A stretch of 9,848 bases of DNA, from NCBI GenBank assembly GCA_025934635.1, contig JAICWX010000320.1, positions 1 through 9,848 on the forward strand, read 5' to 3'. This document shows positions 511 to 9,848 of the stretch, in pieces. A program made the translations under genes and the position numbers. Positions within the stretch are counted from its first letter, which is position 1. The number at the start of each line of letters is the position of its first letter. The stretch is from Streptosporangiaceae bacterium (GTDB taxonomy: Bacteria > Actinomycetota > Actinomycetes > Streptosporangiales > Streptosporangiaceae). The notes below the pieces were generated by a model. That model made no database searches. It was not told where the DNA came from and was given only the letters and a program-made list of their open reading frames with translations.

Positions 511-951
511 ATGACTGAGCCGGACGACGCGCTGTCGAACGAGGCACTGTCGAACGAAGCACTGTCGCTTGACCTGGTGACCGCCGCGCTGCGCGCCGAC
601 AGCACGGACGTGGCCATCTACGCGCGCGTGCTGGCCCAGTCCCTGGGCGAGGCGCTGCCCGCCGACTGCGTCTCGGTGGAGCGGGAACGTTCGATGTCCG
701 ACCGGATGCGCGGGCGCCCCGGCGAGATCACCAAGGTCGCGGCCCAGCTGGGCGAGCTGCAGATGACGCTGGACGTGCGCAGCGGCCGGGCGGTGGCCGA
801 GGTCTGCCGCGCGGTGCGCGGCGTGGTGCTGTCCCGGCAGTCCGTCCCGATCGGCGAGTGGGCCGCCACCCTGGCCGGCGCGCTGGTCAGCTACGCCGAG
901 CAGAATGCCCAGGCGGCGCAGGCGCTGCGCAAGCTGGTGGCGGGGAGTTAG
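511..951 (+). CDS. Conserved actinobacterial hypothetical protein, 146 aa
   Basis: A complete 146-residue soluble protein with no signal peptide, membrane segment or catalytic motif that I can identify. Residues about 22-50 are predicted helical. Residues 51-110 alternate polar and apolar positions in a way that suggests beta strands, with a basic patch (VERERSMSDRMRGRPGEI, 56-73) and a strand-rich part ending VRGVVLSRQ. Residues 115-143 form a probable amphipathic helix ending AQALRKLV. The layout (short helix, sheet, C-terminal helix) resembles small conserved actinobacterial proteins of unknown function; I do not recognise a named family. The first 20 residues contain an ALSNE repeat from a tandem DNA duplication. 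The start at 511 has only a weak GTGGGA ribosome site. It diverges from the kinase gene and converges with the M56 peptidase gene, so it is probably monocistronic. Confidence 0.8.
   Translation: MTEPDDALSNEALSNEALSLDLVTAALRADSTDVAIYARVLAQSLGEALPADCVSVERERSMSDRMRGRPGEITKVAAQLGELQMTLDVRSGRAVAEVCRAVRGVVLSRQSVPIGEWAATLAGALVSYAEQNAQAAQALRKLVAGS
532..561 (+). repeat. 15-bp in-frame tandem duplication in the 146-aa gene
   Basis: Two 15-bp units, CTGTCGAACGAGGCA (532-546) and CTGTCGAACGAAGCA (547-561), differ at one base and are followed by a third partial unit CTGTCG. They encode LSNEA twice at residues 8-17, then LS. The length is a multiple of three, so the frame is kept. Confidence 0.9.
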
Positions 952-990
952 GGACGCGCCGTCCCCGTTCGGTCGCCTGGTTTTGTTTTT
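951..990 (+). terminator. Possible terminator between convergent genes
   Basis: GGGACG (951-956) and CGTCCC (960-965) can pair as a 6-bp GC-rich stem with a 3-nt loop, starting at the last base of the upstream stop codon. A T-rich run TTTTGTTTTT (981-990) follows 15 nt later and overlaps the stop codon of the converging M56 gene. The stem is short and the distance to the T tract is long for a classical rho-independent site, so this is tentative. Confidence 0.35.
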
Positions 991-1957
991 AGCGGGCAGC
1001 CTGGGCGAACTCGATCAGTTCGTGCAGGTCCCGGGTCGCCTCGGCGGCCGAGGCCCCGGCCAGCAGGACGAGGAGCGCCGCCACGGCCAGCAGCGTGAGC
1101 CGCCGCCGCGGCGGCGGGGCCAGGAGCGCGGCGACCCGCCGCGGTACCGGGCCGGCCCAGGCCAGCGACACCGCCCGGGGGCGGGCGCCGGTGATCGCGA
1201 GCGACGCCGCGCGCAGGCGGCGGGGACGGGCGGGGGCGAGCAGCGCGACCCGGCCGATGGTGGCGGCGACCAGGCGGCGGTCGCCGGTGACGGTCGCGGC
1301 GCGCTCGTCGGCCCACCGCTCGACGGTGTAATCCACCGCGCGGGCCACCGGCAGCAGCAGCGGGTTGGCCGCGGCGGCCAGGTGCGCCACCGTGGTGAAC
1401 AGGTGGTGCCGGGCGGCCAGGTGCGCCCGCTCGTGGGCGAACAGCGCGGCCTGGCCGGGGGCATCGAGCGCGGCCAGCAGGCGGCCGGACACCACGATCC
1501 GGCCGGGTGAGCCGGGCAGCGCGTACGCCTCGATGGCCTGCCCGGGCACGATGACGACGGCCTCGGCGGCCTGCCCGGGCCCGGCGCCCGGGGCCATCAG
1601 GGCGGCCCGCCGGTAGGACTCGGCCAGGCCGCGGGCGCGGGCGCGGATCACCACCGCGACCGCCACCGCGGCCGCGGTCAGCAGCAGGGCCGCGGCCAGC
1701 CCGGCCAGCACCGGGACCGGGTCGCCCCGGCGGAGCGCCGGCTGGGAGTACCCGCCCACCGAAGCCAGGGCGGGGATCCGGGCCAGGGCCGACGCGGCCA
1801 GCAGGGCCAGCGCGGCCGTGCTGAAGGCGGCCAGCGCGACCGTGGTCACGGTCAGCAGCCAGGTGGCCAGGCGCGGCTCCAGCCGGGCCGCCAGCGGCCG
1901 GGCCGCCACCGCGGCCAGCACGGGCACCAGCAAGGGCAGATAGACGAGCGCGTCCAT
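989..1957 (-). CDS. M56 (BlaR1/MecR1-like) membrane zinc metallopeptidase
   Basis: A 322-aa integral membrane protease partner of the BlaI-like repressor encoded just upstream. The zinc motif HExxH is present as HERAH at 175-179 in the FAHERAHLAARHH context typical of peptidase family M56, and the likely third ligand is E213 in ERWADERAA. Hydrophobic segments lie around 4-20, 33-58 and 82-106, with another around 286-304; the catalytic part lies between the last two, as expected for a cytosolic protease site. BlaR1 and MecR1 of staphylococci carry a C-terminal penicillin-binding sensor domain of roughly 250 residues. Here only about 18 residues follow the last membrane segment, so the signal must be sensed another way. 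The ATG lies 3 nt after the repressor stop, with GAGGAG as ribosome site inside the repressor's end: a tightly coupled operon. Stop is TAA at 991-989. Confidence 0.93.
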   Translation of the reverse strand: MDALVYLPLLVPVLAAVAARPLAARLEPRLATWLLTVTTVALAAFSTAALALLAASALARIPALASVGGYSQPALRRGDPVPVLAGLAAALLLTAAAVAVAVVIRARARGLAESYRRAALMAPGAGPGQAAEAVVIVPGQAIEAYALPGSPGRIVVSGRLLAALDAPGQAALFAHERAHLAARHHLFTTVAHLAAAANPLLLPVARAVDYTVERWADERAATVTGDRRLVAATIGRVALLAPARPRRLRAASLAITGARPRAVSLAWAGPVPRRVAALLAPPPRRRLTLLAVAALLVLLAGASAAEATRDLHELIEFAQAAR

Positions 1958-1960
1958 CTG

Positions 1961-2407
1961 CTACTCCTCGGTCTCGCCGAGCAACTCGCGCAGCAGCCGG
2001 GTATCACGGCCGGACAGCCCGGACACGAACTGGCTCAGCACCGCGCCGTGATCCGAGCCGGCCTGCAGGGCCTGGCTCATCTGGCTGGCCGCCCGGCTGG
2101 CGTCATCGACCGGCCGGTAGACGAAGGCACGGCCGGCCCGCTCGCGCTCGAGCAGGCCCTTGGCGTGCAGCCGGGACACGATCGTCACGACCGTGCTGTA
2201 GGACAGGTCCTCGGCCAGCCGCTCACGGACCTGCCCGGGGCTCAGCGGGGCGGCCGCGGCCCGGAGCACGTCCAGGATTTCGGCTTCGAGAGCGCCGTGC
2301 GGGCGGCGCGGCGCGGCCGGGTCGGCGTTCGCGTCCGTGCTCGGGTCTGCGCCTGGACCTGCGTTCGACTCTGCGATCAGGTGCGGGGCGAGGCCGTCGT
2401 CGCCCAT
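1961..2407 (-). CDS. BlaI/MecI/CopY-family transcriptional repressor
   Basis: A 148-aa DNA-binding protein. The first 36 residues are an unusual Asp/Ala/Pro-rich, probably disordered extension. The winged helix spans about 38-99: GALEAEILDVLRAA, then the recognition region LSYSTVVTIVSRLHAKGLLERERAGRAFVYRP, a clear BlaI/MecI signature. The C-terminal helices (about 103-143) would dimerise. In staphylococcal MecI and BlaI the cognate protease cuts at an Asn-Phe bond in this part; the aligned stretch AVLSQFVSGLS keeps the phenylalanine (Q126-F127), so F127 marks a candidate cut site, by inference only. The start is well supported by GGGAGG 10 nt upstream. The gene leads the operon with the M56 peptidase and diverges from uppP. 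Two operator-like sites lie just upstream, so autoregulation is likely. Confidence 0.95.
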   Translation of the reverse strand: MGDDGLAPHLIAESNAGPGADPSTDANADPAAPRRPHGALEAEILDVLRAAAAPLSPGQVRERLAEDLSYSTVVTIVSRLHAKGLLERERAGRAFVYRPVDDASRAASQMSQALQAGSDHGAVLSQFVSGLSGRDTRLLRELLGETEE

Positions 2408-2433
2408 TTCTGATTTTCCTCCCGTCGACGTTG

Positions 2434-2454
2434 CATCTACAAGTCTCGTAAATG
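2434..2454. promoter_or_regulatory. Degenerate second operator (site 1), same 8-5-8 geometry
   Basis: CATCTACA (2434-2441), spacer AGTCT, CGTAAATG (2447-2454). Six of eight arm positions pair, including the TACA core on the left and GTA on the right. Its centre (2444) is exactly 20 bp from the centre of the perfect site (2464), about two helical turns, so two dimers could bind on the same DNA face. The outer base 2454 is shared with site 2. Confidence 0.55.
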
Positions 2455-2474
2455 TTCTACAGTGTTTGTAGAAC
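2454..2474. promoter_or_regulatory. Perfect 8-5-8 inverted repeat, probable BlaI-type operator (site 2)
   Basis: GTTCTACA (2454-2461), spacer GTGTT, TGTAGAAC (2467-2474): the arms are exact reverse complements. Each arm carries the TACA/TGTA core known from BlaI/MecI operators. It lies 46 bp before the repressor start and 66 bp before the uppP ATG, so one bound dimer could affect both directions. Binding by the adjacent repressor is inferred from position and motif. Confidence 0.8.
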
Positions 2475-2540
2475 CTTTTCGGACTTCATTATGACACTAC
2501 GGCACTGCTGGCCTGCAACTATCCCGTGAAGGACACTGAC

Positions 2541-3566
2541 ATGACGCATCTGACCTACCTGGAGGCCGCCGTCGTCGGGCTTGTCCAGGGCGTATCCGAG
2601 CTGTTCCCCGTATCCAGCCTGGGGCACGCCGTGCTGATCCCCGCGCTGATCGGCGGCCAGTGGGGCGCCGATCTCGACGTAGCCGCACCGGAGTCGCCGT
2701 ACCTGGCGTTCATCGTGGGACTGCACGTGGCCACCGCGATCGCGCTGCTGGTCTACTTCTGGCGAGACTGGGTGCGGGTTGCCGGCGGCTTCATCAGCTC
2801 GGTGCGCGACCGCCGGGTGGAGACGGCCGACCAGCGGCTGGCCTGGATGATCATCCTGGCCACCATCCCGGTGGGGGTGGTGGGACTGGTAGCAGAACAC
2901 CCGTTCCGGGTGATCTTCGGCAAGCCGGTGGCGGCGGGCGCGTTCCTGGCCGTCAACGGGGTGATCCTGATCGCCGGGGAGAAGTTCCGGCGGCGGGCCT
3001 CGCTGGACGCCGACGCGCGGGTGGCGGCGGGGCGGCGGGCGGAACCGGTGGCGGTGGGCGGGGGTCCGGTTTCGGCGTCTCCTTCGGCGGCTCCTACGTT
3101 CCCGGCGGCTCCTACGTTCCCGGCGGCTCCGGCGCCGGCCGCGGTGGCGCCGTCGGCGGCGGTCATGGCCGACCGGCGGCTGTCGGCCATGGGGTACGGG
3201 CGGGCGGTCGTCATCGGCTCGGCCCAGATCCTGGCGCTGCTGGCCGGGATCAGCCGGGACGGGGTCACGATGGTGGCCGGGATGCGCCGCGGCCTGTCCC
3301 GCGAGGACGCCGCGCGGTTCGCCTTCCTGCTCTCCACGCCGGTGATCCTGGCCGCCGGGGTGCTGAAGATCCCCGACCTGTTCGGGCCGCTGGGCGCCGG
3401 CATCCGCGGCCAGATCCTGCTCGGCAGCGTGCTGTCCGGCCTGGGCGCGTACGCGGCGATCCGGTTCCTGGTCCGGTACCTGCGGACGCGGAGCCTGATC
3501 CCGTTCGGGCTGTACTGCCTGGCGGCGGGGGTGGCCAGCGTGGTCTACCTCGGAGTGGTCAAGTAG
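2541..3566 (+). CDS. uppP: Undecaprenyl-diphosphate phosphatase (UppP/BacA family), divergent type
   Basis: A 341-aa polytopic membrane enzyme that removes a phosphate from undecaprenyl diphosphate outside the membrane to regenerate the lipid carrier for peptidoglycan and other envelope polymers; overproduction of this family gives bacitracin resistance. The N-terminal signature QGVSELFPVSSLGH (16-29) matches the family (Q/E)xxxE motif, with Q16, E20 and H29 at the positions of E. coli E17, E21 and H30. The second signature reads AGISRDGVTM (235-244) instead of the usual PGxSRSGxT; R239 is kept. A loop of about 60 residues (149-209), rich in Ala, Pro and Ser, is inserted between the halves and holds a tandem repeat. 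An in-frame GTG lies at 2526, but AAGGA at 2529-2533 sits 7 nt before ATG 2541, which sets the start. The stop abuts the dedA start. BlaI-type operators lie upstream. Confidence 0.92.
   Translation: MTHLTYLEAAVVGLVQGVSELFPVSSLGHAVLIPALIGGQWGADLDVAAPESPYLAFIVGLHVATAIALLVYFWRDWVRVAGGFISSVRDRRVETADQRLAWMIILATIPVGVVGLVAEHPFRVIFGKPVAAGAFLAVNGVILIAGEKFRRRASLDADARVAAGRRAEPVAVGGGPVSASPSAAPTFPAAPTFPAAPAPAAVAPSAAVMADRRLSAMGYGRAVVIGSAQILALLAGISRDGVTMVAGMRRGLSREDAARFAFLLSTPVILAAGVLKIPDLFGPLGAGIRGQILLGSVLSGLGAYAAIRFLVRYLRTRSLIPFGLYCLAAGVASVVYLGVVK
3085..3130 (+). repeat. 18-bp tandem repeat in the uppP loop, about 2.6 copies
   Basis: The unit CGGCGGCTCCTACGTTCC occurs exactly at 3085-3102 and 3103-3120 and is followed by its first ten bases at 3121-3130. 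In frame it encodes AAPTFP twice and then AAP, within the low-complexity loop between the two halves of UppP. Perfect identity points to a recent duplication. Confidence 0.95.
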
Positions 3567-4283
3567 ATGCAGCATCTCATCGCGACCTACGGGTACCTCG
3601 CCGTGTTCGTGCTCATGCTGGCGGAATCGGCGTGCATCCCGGTTCCGTCCGAGCTGATCATGACGTTCGGCGGGGCGCTGGCGGCCGGGGCGGTTCCCGG
3701 CACCAGCCTCAACCTGGCCGGCGTCATCCTCGCGGGGACCGCGGGGAACGTGGCCGGCAGCTACGTCGCCTGGGCGGTGGGTCGTTACCTGGGGCTGCCC
3801 GCGCTGGAGCGGCTGGCGCGGGGGCGGCTGGCGCGGCGGCTGCTGGTGCGCGAGCACGACCTGGACCGTGCCATCGCCTGGTTCGACCGGCACGGCGGCA
3901 AGGCGGTGCTGATCGGGCGGGTGCTGCCGGTGATCAGGACGTTCATCTCGCTGCCGGCCGGGATCGCGGGGATGGCGCCGGTGCGGTTCGGGATCTACAC
4001 CACCATCGGCTGCATTCCCTGGACGGCGGCGCTGGCCGCGGCGGGGTTCGCGGTCGGCTCGCACTGGGAGTCTGTCGTCGCGGCGTTCCACGGGCCGACG
4101 TACATCATTGCCGGGGTGTTGCTGCTGGTGATCGTGGTGGGCGTGTGGCGGTACGTGCGGCGGCGGCCGGCGGCGGCGGAACCGGCTGGGGTGGGAGAGC
4201 CGTCGGAGCCGAGGAATTCAAGGGATTCCGGGGATTCTGGGGAGCAGTCCCGTCCCGGAGCCCGCCGTCACTTACGGTGGTAG
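3567..4283 (+). CDS. DedA-family (VTT domain) membrane protein, candidate undecaprenyl-phosphate translocase
   Basis: A 238-aa protein with the DedA core at residues about 1-195. The first re-entrant segment carries E20 and IPVPSE29 (ESACIPVPSE). The second carries GRVLPVIRTFISLPAG (117-132), with R118 and R124 spaced like the two essential arginines of E. coli DedA proteins, followed by the AG of the re-entrant turn. Membrane segments continue around 143-165 and 178-195. A polar tail of about 40 residues, rich in Ser, Asp, Gly and Arg, follows. DedA members such as UptA have been shown to move undecaprenyl phosphate to the inner leaflet; others act in ion or lipid homeostasis, so the exact substrate here is inferred from the neighbour. 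The ATG directly follows the uppP stop with no intervening base, which implies translational coupling. Confidence 0.92.
   Translation: MQHLIATYGYLAVFVLMLAESACIPVPSELIMTFGGALAAGAVPGTSLNLAGVILAGTAGNVAGSYVAWAVGRYLGLPALERLARGRLARRLLVREHDLDRAIAWFDRHGGKAVLIGRVLPVIRTFISLPAGIAGMAPVRFGIYTTIGCIPWTAALAAAGFAVGSHWESVVAAFHGPTYIIAGVLLLVIVVGVWRYVRRRPAAAEPAGVGEPSEPRNSRDSGDSGEQSRPGARRHLRW
4222..4239 (+). repeat. 9-bp tandem duplication in the dedA tail
   Basis: GGGATTCCG (4222-4230) is followed by GGGATTCTG (4231-4239), eight of nine bases identical. In frame the region encodes RDSGDSGE in the disordered C-terminal tail of the DedA protein. Confidence 0.7.
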
Positions 4284-4483
4284 GCATTTCGAACGATTTT
4301 TCCATGATCACGAAAGGTTTTAATCAAGAAACGTAGTGAAGTCTTCATGATCATGAACGCTCGCTGTGGATGCGTGAGCGATGAGCGAGTGTGGTTACCA
4401 GCGCTGGCTGATTTCATGATCACGGGTAGTTGGGGGCCGCCGGTGAGGCCTCGCTGGGTCAACGGCCGGGGAAGATGGCGGGG
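4284..4483. other. 200-bp spacer between convergent dedA and enoyl-CoA hydratase genes
   Basis: No gene is supported here. The left two-thirds are clearly richer in AT than the flanking genes. It holds three CATGATCA-type motifs (annotated separately) and a 10-bp perfect palindrome CCAGCGCTGG at 4398-4407. CTCGCT (4361-4366) can pair with AGCGAG (4384-4389). No hairpin followed by a T tract was found for either converging gene, so the terminators are not resolved. Confidence 0.6.
4299..4424. repeat. Three dispersed CATGATCA-centred motifs
   Basis: CATGATCACG at 4303-4312, TTCATGATCATGAA at 4344-4357 (a perfect 14-bp palindrome) and TTTCATGATCACG at 4412-4424. All share TGATCA; its centres are 43 and 69 bp apart. 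Bases preceding the core are pyrimidine-rich in all three (TTTTTC, GTCTT, ATTT), and copies one and two are followed by purine-rich sequence. Three copies of an 8-bp core in 126 bp of high-GC DNA is far more than chance. Function is unknown. Confidence 0.75.
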
Positions 4484-5260
4484 TCAGCGGCCGGTGAAGG
4501 TGGCTTTGCCGGGGCCGTTTTCCAGGAAGCTGCGCATGCCGGCGCGCTGGTCCTCGGTGCCGAACAACGCCGCGAACTGCACCCGTTCCAGCTCAAGCCC
4601 GGTGGCCAGGTCGACGCCGAGGCCGGCGTCGATGGCCTGCTTGGCCGCGCGCAGCGCGAGCGCGGGGCCGGCGGCGTAGCGCTTGACCATGTCCACGGCC
4701 GCCTGGTACACGGAATCATCCGGGACGACCTGGTCGACCAGGCCGAGCCCGAGCGCCTCGGCCGCGCCGACCATGCGGCCGCTGAAGACGAGGTCCTTGG
4801 CCTTGGCCGGGCCGATCAGGCGGGGCAGCCGCTGGGTACCGCCCGCGCCCGGGATGATGCCGAGCAGGATCTCGGGCTGGCCGAGCCGGGCCCGCTCCCC
4901 CGCGATGCGGAAGTCGGCCGCCAGCGCGACCTCCATGCCGCCGCCGAGCGCGTAGCCGGTGATCGCGGCGACCACCGGCTTGCCCAGGGCGGCCAGCAGG
5001 TTGACGGCGGCCTGGAGCCGGGCGCCGCGGGCGGCCATCTCGGCGTAGCCGGCCTCGGCCATCACCTTGATGTCGGCGCCGCCGGCGAAGACCTTCTCGC
5101 CGCCGTAGATGATCACGGCGCGGACCTCGTCCGCGGCCGCGGCCCGGGCAGCGTCGGCCAGCTCCTCCGTGACCTGGTCGTTCAGCGCGTTGACGGGCGG
5201 CCGGTTCAGCCGGATGGTGCCGATCCCGTCCGCGACTTCCAGGTTGACGAACTCACCCAT
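4484..5260 (-). CDS. Enoyl-CoA hydratase/isomerase (crotonase) family protein
   Basis: A 258-aa single-domain crotonase. The oxyanion-hole segments are AGGADIK (59-65) and GYALGGGMEVALAADFRIA (102-120). Both glutamates used by classical enoyl-CoA hydratases are present, E110 in GGGMEVAL and E130 in GQPEILLGIIPGAGGTQRLPRL, so syn-hydration of trans-2-enoyl-CoA in fatty-acid oxidation is chemically possible; the physiological substrate is not readable from sequence. Length is normal. An in-frame GTG at 5281 has no ribosome site, whereas AAGG (5273-5270) lies 9 nt before ATG 5260, so the shorter start is preferred. The gene follows glgP in the same direction with a 50-bp gap that contains a strong hairpin, so co-transcription is uncertain and I see no metabolic reason for it to belong to the alpha-glucan genes. 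Confidence 0.95.
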   Translation of the reverse strand: MGEFVNLEVADGIGTIRLNRPPVNALNDQVTEELADAARAAAADEVRAVIIYGGEKVFAGGADIKVMAEAGYAEMAARGARLQAAVNLLAALGKPVVAAITGYALGGGMEVALAADFRIAGERARLGQPEILLGIIPGAGGTQRLPRLIGPAKAKDLVFSGRMVGAAEALGLGLVDQVVPDDSVYQAAVDMVKRYAAGPALALRAAKQAIDAGLGVDLATGLELERVQFAALFGTEDQRAGMRSFLENGPGKATFTGR

Positions 5261-5310: not shown

Positions 5311-7941
5311 TTAGCGCAGGTCACCGTTCGTCATGCCGGCCGGGGCCTGCGGGTAGGTGACCAGGCCGAGCTCGGCGCGGCTGTCGAGCAGCGGATGGTT
5401 CGGCAGGACCCGCACGGTGTAGCCGAACGGCCCGGGCTGATCCAGCGGCACTTCACCGGAGTAGCGGACCACCCCCGCTACCGCGCCGTTAGCAGCCGGG
5501 CCGGTGGCCACCGGGCCGGTGGCCGGCTCGGCGGGCTCGGCGGTCAGCGTCGCGTAGTCGGGCGCCACGAGCTCGTCGGCGTCGTCGGGACGGCCGTAGA
5601 CCACCTCGACCGTCACGTCGTCCGGAGTGAGCTCGCCCAGCGATACCGAGACCCGCACGGTCAGCTCGGTGCCGAGGGCCTGCCCGGCGGCCAGCGACTC
5701 CACGTGCTCGACCCGCAGCTCGGGCCAGGCCGCCACCACGCGCTGCTTCCAGGTGGCCAGCTCGCGGGCCGGGCCCGGGCCCTGCTCGCCGGCCAGGCTG
5801 CGGGAAGACGCGGCGGCCGGCACGTACAGCGCCGTGACGTACTCCCGGACCATCCGCTCGGCCTGGACCTTCGGCCCCAGCGAGCGGAAGGTGTGCCGGA
5901 CCCGCTCGAGCCAGCCCGGCGAGATGCCGTCGCCGTCCCGCTCGTAGAACAGCGGCGCCACCGACTTGCCGATCAGCTCGTACAGCGCGGTGGCCTCGAG
6001 CGCGTCGCGGCGGGTGGTGTCGGCCACGCCGTCGGCGGACGGGATCTCCCAGCCGTTCCCGCCGTCGTACCACTCGTCCCACCAGCCGTCCCGCACCGAC
6101 AGGTTGAGCGCGCCGTTCAGCGCGGCCTTCATGCCCGAGGTCCCGCATGCCTCCAGCGGGCGCAGCGGGTTGTTCAGCCACACGTCGCAGCCCTGGACCA
6201 GGTACTCGGCCATGGCCATGTCGTAGTCGGGCAGGAACACGATCCGGCGGTGCACGTCCGGCGAGTCGGTGTACTGGACCATCTGCTGGATCAGGCCCTT
6301 GCCGCCCTCGTCGGCCGGGTGCGCCTTGCCCGCGACCACGATCTGGATCGGCTGGTCCGGGTCGTTCAGCAGGCCGGACAGGGTGGCCGGGTCGTTCAGC
6401 ATCAGCGTCAGCCGCTTGTAGGACGGCACCCGCCGGGCGAACCCGATCGTCAGCACGTGGCCGTCGAGCACGTCGTCGATCCAGGTCAGCTCGGCCTCGG
6501 ACGCCCCCCGCTGACGCCAGGAGGCGCGCAGCCGCCGCCGGGTCTCGGTGACCAGCCGGGCGCGCAGCGCGTGCCGGGCCTCCCACAGCTCGCCGCCCGG
6601 GGCGGCCGCGGCCCGCTCCCAGTCCCAGCCGGCCGTCTCCCCCGGCGAGGCGCCGGTCAGCGACAGGATCTCCGGGGCCACCCAGGTGGGGGTGTGCACG
6701 CCGTTGGTGACCGAGCCGATGGGCACCTCGCGGGTGTCGAAGCCGGGCCACAGGCCGGCGAACATCTCCCGGCTGACCTGGCCGTGCAGCAGCGAGACGC
6801 CGTTGACGCGCTGCGCCAGGCGCATGCCCATCACGGCCATGTTGAAGACCTCGGGGTCCCCGCCCGGGTAGGTCTCCGCGCCGAGCGCGAGCACCCGGTC
6901 GATGGGCAGCAGCGGGTCGGCGGCGAAGTGCTCGCGGATCAGGCTGCGCTCGAACCGGTCGATGCCCGCCGGGACCGGGGTGTGGGTGGTGAAGACGGTG
7001 CCGGCCCGGGTCAGCTCGAGCGCCTCGGAGAAGCTGAGCCCCTGCTCGGCGTACTCGCGGATGCGCTCCAGGCCGAGGAACCCGGCGTGGCCCTCGTTGG
7101 TGTGGAACACCTCGGGCGAGGGGTGACCGGTGAGCGTACAGAACGCCCGCACCGCCCGGGTGCCGCCGATGCCGAGCAGCAGCTCCTGGCGGAGCCGGTG
7201 GTCGCTGCCGCCGCCGTACAGCCGGTCGGTGACCTCGTGCAGGTCGGCCTCGTTGGCCTCCACGTAGGAGTCGAGCAGCAGCAGCGGGACCCGGCCGACC
7301 TGGGCGACCCAGATCTGCGCGGCCAGCTGCCGGCCCTCGGTCAGGTTCACGGTCACGTGCACCGGTGACCCGGATTCGTCGTGCAGCAGCTCGAGCGGCA
7401 GGCCGTTCGGGTCGTCGGACGGGTAGCGCTCGGCCTGCCACCCGTCGGCGGACAGCGACTGGGTGAAGTACCCGTGCCGGTACAGCAGGCCGACCCCGAT
7501 CAGCGGCACGCCCAGGTCGCTGGCGGACTTCAGGTGATCGCCGGCCAGGATGCCCAGGCCGCCGGAGTACTGCGGCAGCGCGGCGGTGATGCCGTACTCG
7601 GGCGAGAAGTACGCGATCGCGGCGGGCCCGGTGCCGGGCTCGCCCTCGGCCGCGTACCAGCGCGGCTGCGACATGTACTCCTGCAGGTCCCGCTCGGCCT
7701 CGGCCAGCCGGCCGAGGAACTCCCCGTCGGCCGCGAGCGCGGCGATCCGGGCCGACGGCAGCGCGCTGAGCATCGCGACCGGGTCACAGCCGGACGCCTT
7801 CCAGGCGGCGGGGTCGATCGACGCGAACAGGTCGGCGGTCGGGCGGTGCCAGGACCAGCGGAGGTTCAGCATCAGGCCGTGCAGCGCGGCCAGCGGCTCG
7901 GGCAGGGTTACGCGGACGGTGAACCGGCGAATCGCTTTCAC
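5311..7941 (-). CDS. glgP: Alpha-glucan (glycogen) phosphorylase, DUF3417/GT35 type
   Basis: An 876-aa PLP enzyme that phosphorolyses terminal alpha-1,4 links of glycogen-like glucan to glucose 1-phosphate. The N-terminal DUF3417 domain (about 12-115) carries NLRWSWHRPTADLF. The phosphorylase core (about 115-710) has YSGGLGILAGDHLKSASDLG (125-144), HTNEGHAGF (280-288), FTTHTPVPAGIDRF (317-330), VTNGVH (411-416) and SYKR (507-510). The cofactor lysine is K605 in EACGTSGMKAALNG. A C-terminal beta-rich part (about 735-860) contains a Thr/Gly/Pro/Ala-rich linker with a tandem repeat. Length fits the actinobacterial DUF3417-containing type. The start is GTG at 7941-7939, with AAGG 7 nt upstream. 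It diverges from glgE, as Rv1328 and Rv1327c do in Mycobacterium tuberculosis. Stop is TAA. Confidence 0.96.
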   Translation of the reverse strand: MKAIRRFTVRVTLPEPLAALHGLMLNLRWSWHRPTADLFASIDPAAWKASGCDPVAMLSALPSARIAALAADGEFLGRLAEAERDLQEYMSQPRWYAAEGEPGTGPAAIAYFSPEYGITAALPQYSGGLGILAGDHLKSASDLGVPLIGVGLLYRHGYFTQSLSADGWQAERYPSDDPNGLPLELLHDESGSPVHVTVNLTEGRQLAAQIWVAQVGRVPLLLLDSYVEANEADLHEVTDRLYGGGSDHRLRQELLLGIGGTRAVRAFCTLTGHPSPEVFHTNEGHAGFLGLERIREYAEQGLSFSEALELTRAGTVFTTHTPVPAGIDRFERSLIREHFAADPLLPIDRVLALGAETYPGGDPEVFNMAVMGMRLAQRVNGVSLLHGQVSREMFAGLWPGFDTREVPIGSVTNGVHTPTWVAPEILSLTGASPGETAGWDWERAAAAPGGELWEARHALRARLVTETRRRLRASWRQRGASEAELTWIDDVLDGHVLTIGFARRVPSYKRLTLMLNDPATLSGLLNDPDQPIQIVVAGKAHPADEGGKGLIQQMVQYTDSPDVHRRIVFLPDYDMAMAEYLVQGCDVWLNNPLRPLEACGTSGMKAALNGALNLSVRDGWWDEWYDGGNGWEIPSADGVADTTRRDALEATALYELIGKSVAPLFYERDGDGISPGWLERVRHTFRSLGPKVQAERMVREYVTALYVPAAASSRSLAGEQGPGPARELATWKQRVVAAWPELRVEHVESLAAGQALGTELTVRVSVSLGELTPDDVTVEVVYGRPDDADELVAPDYATLTAEPAEPATGPVATGPAANGAVAGVVRYSGEVPLDQPGPFGYTVRVLPNHPLLDSRAELGLVTYPQAPAGMTNGDLR
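5496..5525 (-). repeat. 15-bp tandem duplication in the glgP C-terminal linker
   Basis: CCGGGCCGGTGGCCA (5496-5510) and CCGGGCCGGTGGCCG (5511-5525) differ at one base. On the coding strand they encode the repeated ATGPV/ATGPA of a low-complexity linker in the C-terminal beta domain of GlgP. Confidence 0.85.
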
Positions 7942-8123
7942 GGGCAGACCTTAACGGGTCCGCGCCACCGCGACGAACCATTCGCCGGTCATGATGGCTC
8001 GATCCACCACGTAACACCGGAAATAAAAATCAAAATATACCGAACGAGGTGGCCTTTCACGGCTTAGCCAGGTTCGTCTACCCATGCGGGCGGCGCGAAA
8101 GAAATAGGGGTACCCACGCTGGC
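7942..8123. promoter_or_regulatory. Divergent control region, glgP / glgE
   Basis: A 182-bp spacer with a striking AT-rich core at 8020-8040 in otherwise GC-rich DNA. On the plus strand, GTAACA (8011-8016) and AATATA (8034-8039) with a 17-bp spacer form a weak candidate promoter for glgE; the same AT block can serve the minus strand (TATATT read on that strand). The octamer GGTTCGTC occurs once upstream of each gene in the same orientation relative to that gene: at 8071-8078, 45 bp before glgE, and as its complement at 7972-7979, 30 bp before glgP. GGGTACCC (8108-8115) is an 8-bp palindrome overlapping the possible glgE ribosome site. Confidence 0.5.

Positions 8124-9848
<1,725 letters not shown>

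Follow-up and report, generated by a model that had tools for sequence, protein, structure and literature searches.

The 9,848-nucleotide stretch analyzed here (hereafter the window), from a soil actinobacterium of the Streptosporangiaceae, encodes a BlaI-family repressor and a membrane metalloprotease that face, across a short shared spacer, the genes for the undecaprenyl-diphosphate phosphatase UppP and a DedA-family membrane protein. Wall synthesis has a common bottleneck in the recycling of its lipid carrier, which is also where bacitracin-type drugs act. Using comparative genomics we find that these genes probably constitute a BlaI/BlaR1-type switch that lacks the penicillin sensor and controls a regulon for the recycling of the undecaprenyl lipid carrier. 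At the level of sequence comparison, the tandem operator in the spacer and the carrier-recycling regulon are well supported: the comparisons below document the genes and the operator, the latter both conserved and repeatedly found in front of recycling genes.

Gene organization and protein families

The repressor gene (1961-2407, minus strand) is separated by three bases from the downstream metalloprotease gene on the same strand (989-1957, minus; 322 residues), and on the opposite strand uppP (2541-3566, plus) and dedA (3567-4283, plus) abut with a gap of zero (3566/3567). The divergent spacer between blaI and uppP (2408-2540) is 133 bp long and has a GC content of 47%, against 72% for the window. 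A first-pass annotation made from the DNA letters had noted this divergent arrangement, the shared 133-bp spacer and the gapless junction; all four open reading frames (ORFs) lie where it had placed them, and the ORF coordinates bear out the other two points.

Judged by profile matches, the assignments of BlaI, UppP and the DedA/VTT-domain protein to their families are solid. The repressor matches PF03965 (74 bits against a cut-off of 22.6) and contains the Penicillinase_R domain, a trait of BlaI/MecI repressors; a profile derived from it reaches MecI and the penicillinase repressors, and its closest solved relative is PDB 2g9w (E = 6.8e-07), deposited as a "conserved hypothetical protein", which we take to be Rv1846c of Mycobacterium tuberculosis. 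UppP is recovered by PF02673 (218 bits) and by NCBIfam NF001395 (458 bits against a cut-off of 394), and the DedA protein, possibly a translocase of undecaprenyl phosphate (C55-P), by PF09335 (77 bits). The latter scores 103 and 102 bits with the NCBIfam UptA models, below their curated cut-offs of 250 and 300, which leaves the earlier likening of this protein to UptA unestablished.

The metalloprotease displays the transmembrane and zinc-metalloprotease fold typical of BlaR1 and MecR1, with the HExxH motif, and carries a short loop that is conserved (about residues 60-86). It had been assigned to the M56 family; the Pfam M56 model gave no match at E <= 0.001, and M48 (PF01435, 42 bits) was the only one matched. 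The protein ends about 16 residues past its last membrane helix, and the C-terminal extracellular penicillin-binding sensor domain of BlaR1, placed at residues 332-585 in the extracts of PMC9834060, is absent, a point that the first-pass annotation had not raised. Hence, even though the BlaI family and the BlaR1-like membrane and protease fold recall a classical beta-lactam-sensing BlaR1/BlaI system, for which carrier recycling would merely be the output, the missing sensor and a family scan of nine window ORFs that returned no beta-lactamase make this explanation highly improbable.

Conservation of the gene neighborhood

To place the window among its relatives we searched the 297 genomes of its family group with the protease and obtained matches in 104 of them at an E-value of 1e-10 or better. 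The group includes eleven metagenome-assembled genomes (MAGs; G001-G011) that are labelled Streptosporangiaceae, Streptosporangiales, Nocardiopsaceae, or just Actinomycetes, Actinobacteria or Actinomycetota. From the matches we took 41 loci regardless of the presence of UppP, namely 40 contexts of up to 13 kb and locus L053 of genome G002. There are 42 matches with at least 184 bits, of which 40, L053 included, are among the 41 loci; the remaining locus is L127 (146 bits), and the matches of G001, which was already known, and of G251 (locus L162, where a BlaI-protease pair faces DedA) fall outside. The set leaves out matches between 136 and 184 bits, L127 apart. Controls from the same genomes were 20 intermediate (90-135 bits) and 20 distant (45-62 bits) protease pairs, for each of which 6 kb was searched on either side. 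DedA and PAP2 neighbors were counted with separate profiles; counts based on blastp clusters were discarded, one cluster having mixed both families.

A gene for UppP, a PAP2 phosphatase or DedA lies within 4.5 kb of blaI in 36 of the 41 loci, the weakest cases being L122 and L123 (PAP2 at 55-57 bits), and in 29 loci a recycling gene is divergent from blaI and within 3 kb of it. The divergent gene or genes include a phosphatase in 28 loci, DedA in 18 and both in 17. Of the five loci devoid of a recycling gene, two (L053 and L110) are cut short by the end of the contig; the other three (L112, L121 and L127) carry a glycosyltransferase family 4 (GT4) gene in its place. When the proteases are clustered at 80% identity, 21 of the resulting 26 groups have a recycling gene and 14 the tandem operator described below. 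By comparison, recycling genes were found at none of the 20 distant and one of the 20 intermediate control pairs (a 45-bit PAP2); the corresponding Fisher P values (8.5e-12 against the distant controls and 2.1e-16 against both sets) are optimistic because the loci are related by descent. Conservation of the neighbors beyond close relatives, on which the first-pass annotation had staked its proposal, is therefore not contradicted by the protease-selected loci, and its view that the pair is tied to carrier recycling, and not to a beta-lactamase, is supported both by these 36 loci and by the detached operators before some UppP, DedA and PAP2 genes considered further on. An UppP-anchored survey, which had recovered the four-gene block in just one of 47 loci (L001), had pointed to a block that is not conserved; its sample was narrow and rich in short contigs, and anchoring on the protease reversed its outcome.

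The genes facing BlaI, representatives of which were checked with Pfam, comprise two UppP subtypes (that of the window and the canonical one of 278 residues), PAP2 phosphatases of an unrelated family and two subtypes of DedA, often accompanied by a GT4 glycosyltransferase. As far as their sequences go, these differing genes fit a single job, i.e. functional interchange, with the PAP2 proteins presumably acting on undecaprenyl diphosphate (C55-PP). Two further products are encoded at L095, an IspD-SDR fusion and a protein with a weak likeness to glycerophosphotransferases, additions that would fit the synthesis of a teichoic-acid-type polymer. In G309 (L158, 4452-6887) a tandem operator with two mismatches separates a BlaI gene from the UppP gene that it faces, and no protease gene was found beside this BlaI.

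A tandem operator between blaI and uppP

The strong operator-like palindrome that had been noted in the spacer is real: it is the perfect dyad TTCTAC-N7-GTAGAA at 2455-2473 (TTCTACAGTGTTTGTAGAA, i.e. TTCTACA-N5-TGTAGAA). It is, however, one of two tandem dyads, the other of which had been missed and lies at 2435-2453, 20 bp upstream as measured from center to center, with one mismatch to TCTAC-N7-GTAGA. Taken alone the perfect dyad is only mildly unlikely, since 17 of 2000 shuffled versions of the spacer reach an arm of eight; given so modest a single-palindrome statistic, the weight of the operator evidence is comparative. In L001 (MAG RYN_230), whose UppP is 73% identical to that of the window, both dyads are perfect and the flanking sequence is less alike, and across the loci the recurrent element is the pair of dyads rather than a lone palindrome.

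We scanned the 43 spacers of the 41 loci, the window and L001 for TCTAC-N5-7-GTAGA with at most one mismatch and recovered at least one site upstream of blaI in 38 and a tandem pair in 28. The background in the same loci is far lower, with a site in 24 and a tandem pair in two of 1359 other segments, these two pairs lying in L118 beside another blaI and in L053 after the protease gene; shuffled spacers yielded a site in 13 and a tandem pair in none of 2150. Perfect dyads are likewise missing from all 40 control pairs. All 28 tandem pairs have a 3-bp gap between the dyads, whereas the spacing within a dyad varies with lineage (5, 6 or 7), which puts the centers 18-20 bp apart. More than one pairing of half-sites by a BlaI dimer is conceivable. 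The five loci with no site before blaI are L118 and L124-L127, and in four of them (L118, L124, L125 and L126) dyads stand before PAP2 or DedA genes at other points of the locus, a placement also seen in L106, L111 and L115. The classical spacing, TACANNTGTA, as quoted for CopY, BlaI and MecI in the extracts of PMC7253601, was not encountered here, where the half-sites read TACA-N5-TGTA in the window and L001 and TCTAC-N5 to N7-GTAGA in the clade.

Detached copies of the operator

A search of the 297 genomes for the tandem element with N6 spacing, allowing up to two mismatches and using the reversed pattern as control, found it in 26 genomes, all of which are among the 104 that bear the protease (P = 1.4e-13); the reversed pattern occurs in two. 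The tandem element occupies 29 places, 24 of them located at BlaI or protease genes and five detached. The latter precede a DedA gene (G173:C147), a UppP gene with a 68-bit BlaI fragment on its far side (G303:C92), a GT39-like gene facing a response regulator (G188:C174), a DMT-like gene recognized by eye (G252:C13) and an ABC-type gene, also recognized by eye, the last probably by chance (G173:C260). Pfam gave no family for the GT39-like, the DMT-like and one DedA-like protein, whose labels come from custom profiles or inspection by eye.

The perfect single dyad TTCTAC-N6-GTAGAA is found at 44 places in 38 near-clade genomes, compared with four for the reversed pattern. These add 16 further detached sites (G304:C34 included in the data), seven of which precede UppP, DedA or PAP2 genes and one of which stands beside the GT39/regulator site; the remaining eight are other or unassigned, with four of them inside predicted coding sequence and one (G120:C26) before a monogalactosyldiacylglycerol-synthase-type glycosyltransferase and a polysaccharide deacetylase. 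G001 and G002 are the two genomes closest to the window; there a loose pattern has eight places, and since its reversed form is commoner (15 places) only placement counts and not number: three are at blaI-protease(-uppP), two before DedA genes (one with an internal stop), two before a response regulator-kinase operon and one is unassigned. Given that in relatives the same operator also precedes dispersed UppP, PAP2 and DedA genes, we read the arrangement as a carrier-recycling regulon and not as a two-gene accident.

An OmpR-type regulator-kinase pair lies behind its own tandem operator in G002 (L054, 1536-3784), and a homologous pair is located just downstream of uppP-dedA in L001 (8273-10383). 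It may represent a second layer of the same response.

Sister pairs across the class and alternative readings

A wider search of 296 genomes across the class recovered 49 with a protease match at 1e-25, from which, G001, G032 and G025 aside, we took the 20 top-ranking genomes and examined the context of the best match in each (41-48% protease identity). In six of the 20 loci UppP, PAP2 or DedA is present within the fetched 6 kb, five times adjacent and divergent, and perfect dyads occur in ten. The four-gene block, for which the first-pass annotation had proposed a search among actinobacteria, does recur at this distance: L288 and L290, with 41-46% protease identity, repeat the layout of the window, BlaI-protease facing UppP and then DedA. 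Their spacers lack an operator of the window type. In seven loci (L271, L274, L275, L276, L280, L285 and L286) perfect TCTAC-N6-GTAGA dyads lie near TerD-, TerB- and Spo0M-like genes, as identified by eye. With dyads placed before such genes in the sister pairs, the regulon would therefore differ by lineage, and the TerD/TerB/Spo0M-like targets possibly form a second regulon of the same switch family.

Several of these observations weigh against a switch dedicated to carrier recycling. Thirteen of the 20 class-wide pairs have no recycling gene within about 6 kb, save for one at 4.4 kb; L288 and L290 share the gene layout and lack the operator; and the same dyads stand, by eye, before non-recycling genes in the sister pairs. 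Nearer to the window, the BlaI-protease pair of G002 is not beside uppP, and neither the uppP (L002) of this genome nor its dedA closest to that of the window has an operator; its tandem dyads are found after the protease gene, just before the contig end. Three of the five detached tandems and nine of the 16 detached single dyads do not precede a recycling gene, and to these must be added the excess of the reversed pattern in G001 and G002 and the shared ancestry that flatters the P values. The steps from operator binding through repression to BlaI cleavage, along with how the response is directed, what triggers it and which substrates the PAP2 and DedA proteins handle, are all inferred.

These points bear differently on two further explanations. 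The operator might serve only the feedback of blaI-protease on itself, with uppP-dedA a chance or historical neighbor, as could be argued from dyads that are as near blaI as uppP, from the separation of the pair from uppP in G002 and from L288 and L290, which keep the neighbors in the absence of this operator. Yet mere neighborhood would hardly account for an association in 36 of 41 loci against one of 40 controls, with phosphatases of unrelated families exchanged, nor for the dyads before detached UppP, DedA and PAP2 genes, and we regard it as very unlikely. A stronger contender is a general envelope-stress switch, in which BlaI and the protease answer varied damage to the wall or membrane, the carrier itself is not sensed, and the outputs, namely UppP, DedA, PAP2, GT4 and teichoic-acid-type genes, differ by lineage. 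The GT4 genes beside blaI in several loci, the IspD-SDR fusion and glycerophosphotransferase-like gene of L095, the response regulator-kinase genes found close to the locus or following the operator, and the TerD-, TerB- and Spo0M-associated dyads of the sister pairs all speak for such breadth; against it, the near-clade neighbors are mostly UppP, PAP2 and DedA, in the said 36 loci. We consider this a real possibility, though one that falls short of an even chance.

Proposed mechanism

Under the proposed carrier-recycling switch, BlaI dimers on both tandem dyads of the shared spacer would hold down blaI-protease, as feedback, and uppP-dedA, a repression of both sides that is suggested by the comparison across loci. 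Some envelope or lipid signal, for which the first-pass annotation had proposed envelope damage or carrier shortage, would trigger the sensorless, BlaR1-like membrane metalloprotease, which would then cut BlaI next to Phe127. This phenylalanine occupies the P1' place of the MecI-aligned cleavage position and is invariant in 43 of 43 BlaI proteins, preceded at P1 by Arg in 41 and by Gln in two; the predicted cleavage draws on it and on what is known of the family. The loss of BlaI would release uppP and dedA together, their joint rise being expected from the gene order, so that more UppP would dephosphorylate more C55-PP outside and more DedA would return more C55-P inside. The response would widen to a regulon in relatives, where this operator precedes dispersed UppP, PAP2 and DedA genes.

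Only tentatively do we go further and suggest that the protease senses carrier status (C55-PP, C55-P or lipid II) within the membrane by means of its helices and the loop at about residues 60-86. Such a homeostatic loop would set recycling capacity, with the unrelated phosphatases UppP and PAP2 as interchangeable outputs under one operator; we think it somewhat unlikely in this specific form.

Comparison with known systems

The system resembles BlaI-BlaR1 and MecI-MecR1 of Staphylococcus aureus in its repressor family, in the transmembrane and zinc-protease fold of BlaR1, in a divergent target with paired dyads and in the Phe kept at the predicted cleavage position. It differs in lacking the sensor domain, in having carrier-recycling genes as predicted targets, in the half-site spacing given above and in Gln or Arg at P1, where the staphylococcal proteins have Asn (the site is Asn101-Phe102 in the extracts of PMC9834060). 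Targets other than a beta-lactamase are shared with M. tuberculosis BlaI (Rv1846c), which is also linked to the window repressor as its closest solved relative through 2g9w; those named in the extracts of PMC8265638 and PMC12565901 are atpH, sigC, ftsQ and Rv1303, with no UppP, DedA or PAP2 among them. As for the recycling steps, the types of enzyme and their order are those of Bacillus/Staphylococcus-type UppP-UptA recycling, in which, according to extracts of PMC11474028, and of PMC12893004 for another DedA, UptA-type transporters are reported to return C55-P; the window DedA departs from it by scoring below the UptA cut-offs.

Searches of the open-access literature, with subscription papers mostly outside their scope, returned among the matches listed no BlaI control of UppP, DedA or PAP2, no BlaI-type control of UppP-UptA recycling and no dedicated transcriptional switch for carrier recycling in actinobacteria. 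Regulation by BlaI beyond a beta-lactamase is known from M. tuberculosis; what appears new is a BlaI/BlaR1-type switch tied to carrier recycling by UppP, DedA and PAP2. Such a switch, sensorless and linked to this step in many genomes, would make the best-known antibiotic-resistance switch just one member of a broader family of envelope regulators, and it supplies a short DNA site that allows regulons to be predicted directly.

Other features of the window

A scan of 1900-4500 for sigma-70-like promoters gave no site. Within uppP, a short direct repeat, TFPAAPTFPAAP, lies at 3089-3135 in the Ala/Pro-rich linker that joins the two halves of the protein, and the gap 3' of dedA (4300-4425) holds three CATGATCA-type palindromes, seen by eye. 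Between an edge-cut Ser/Thr kinase gene and the protease gene, positions 511-951 (plus strand) encode a protein of 146 residues that matched no Pfam or NCBIfam family and has relatives in the Pseudonocardia loci L016 and L017. Finally, at 5311-9848 a gene for a DUF3417-type alpha-glucan phosphorylase faces one for a glgE-type maltosyltransferase, an ordinary actinobacterial glucan pair.

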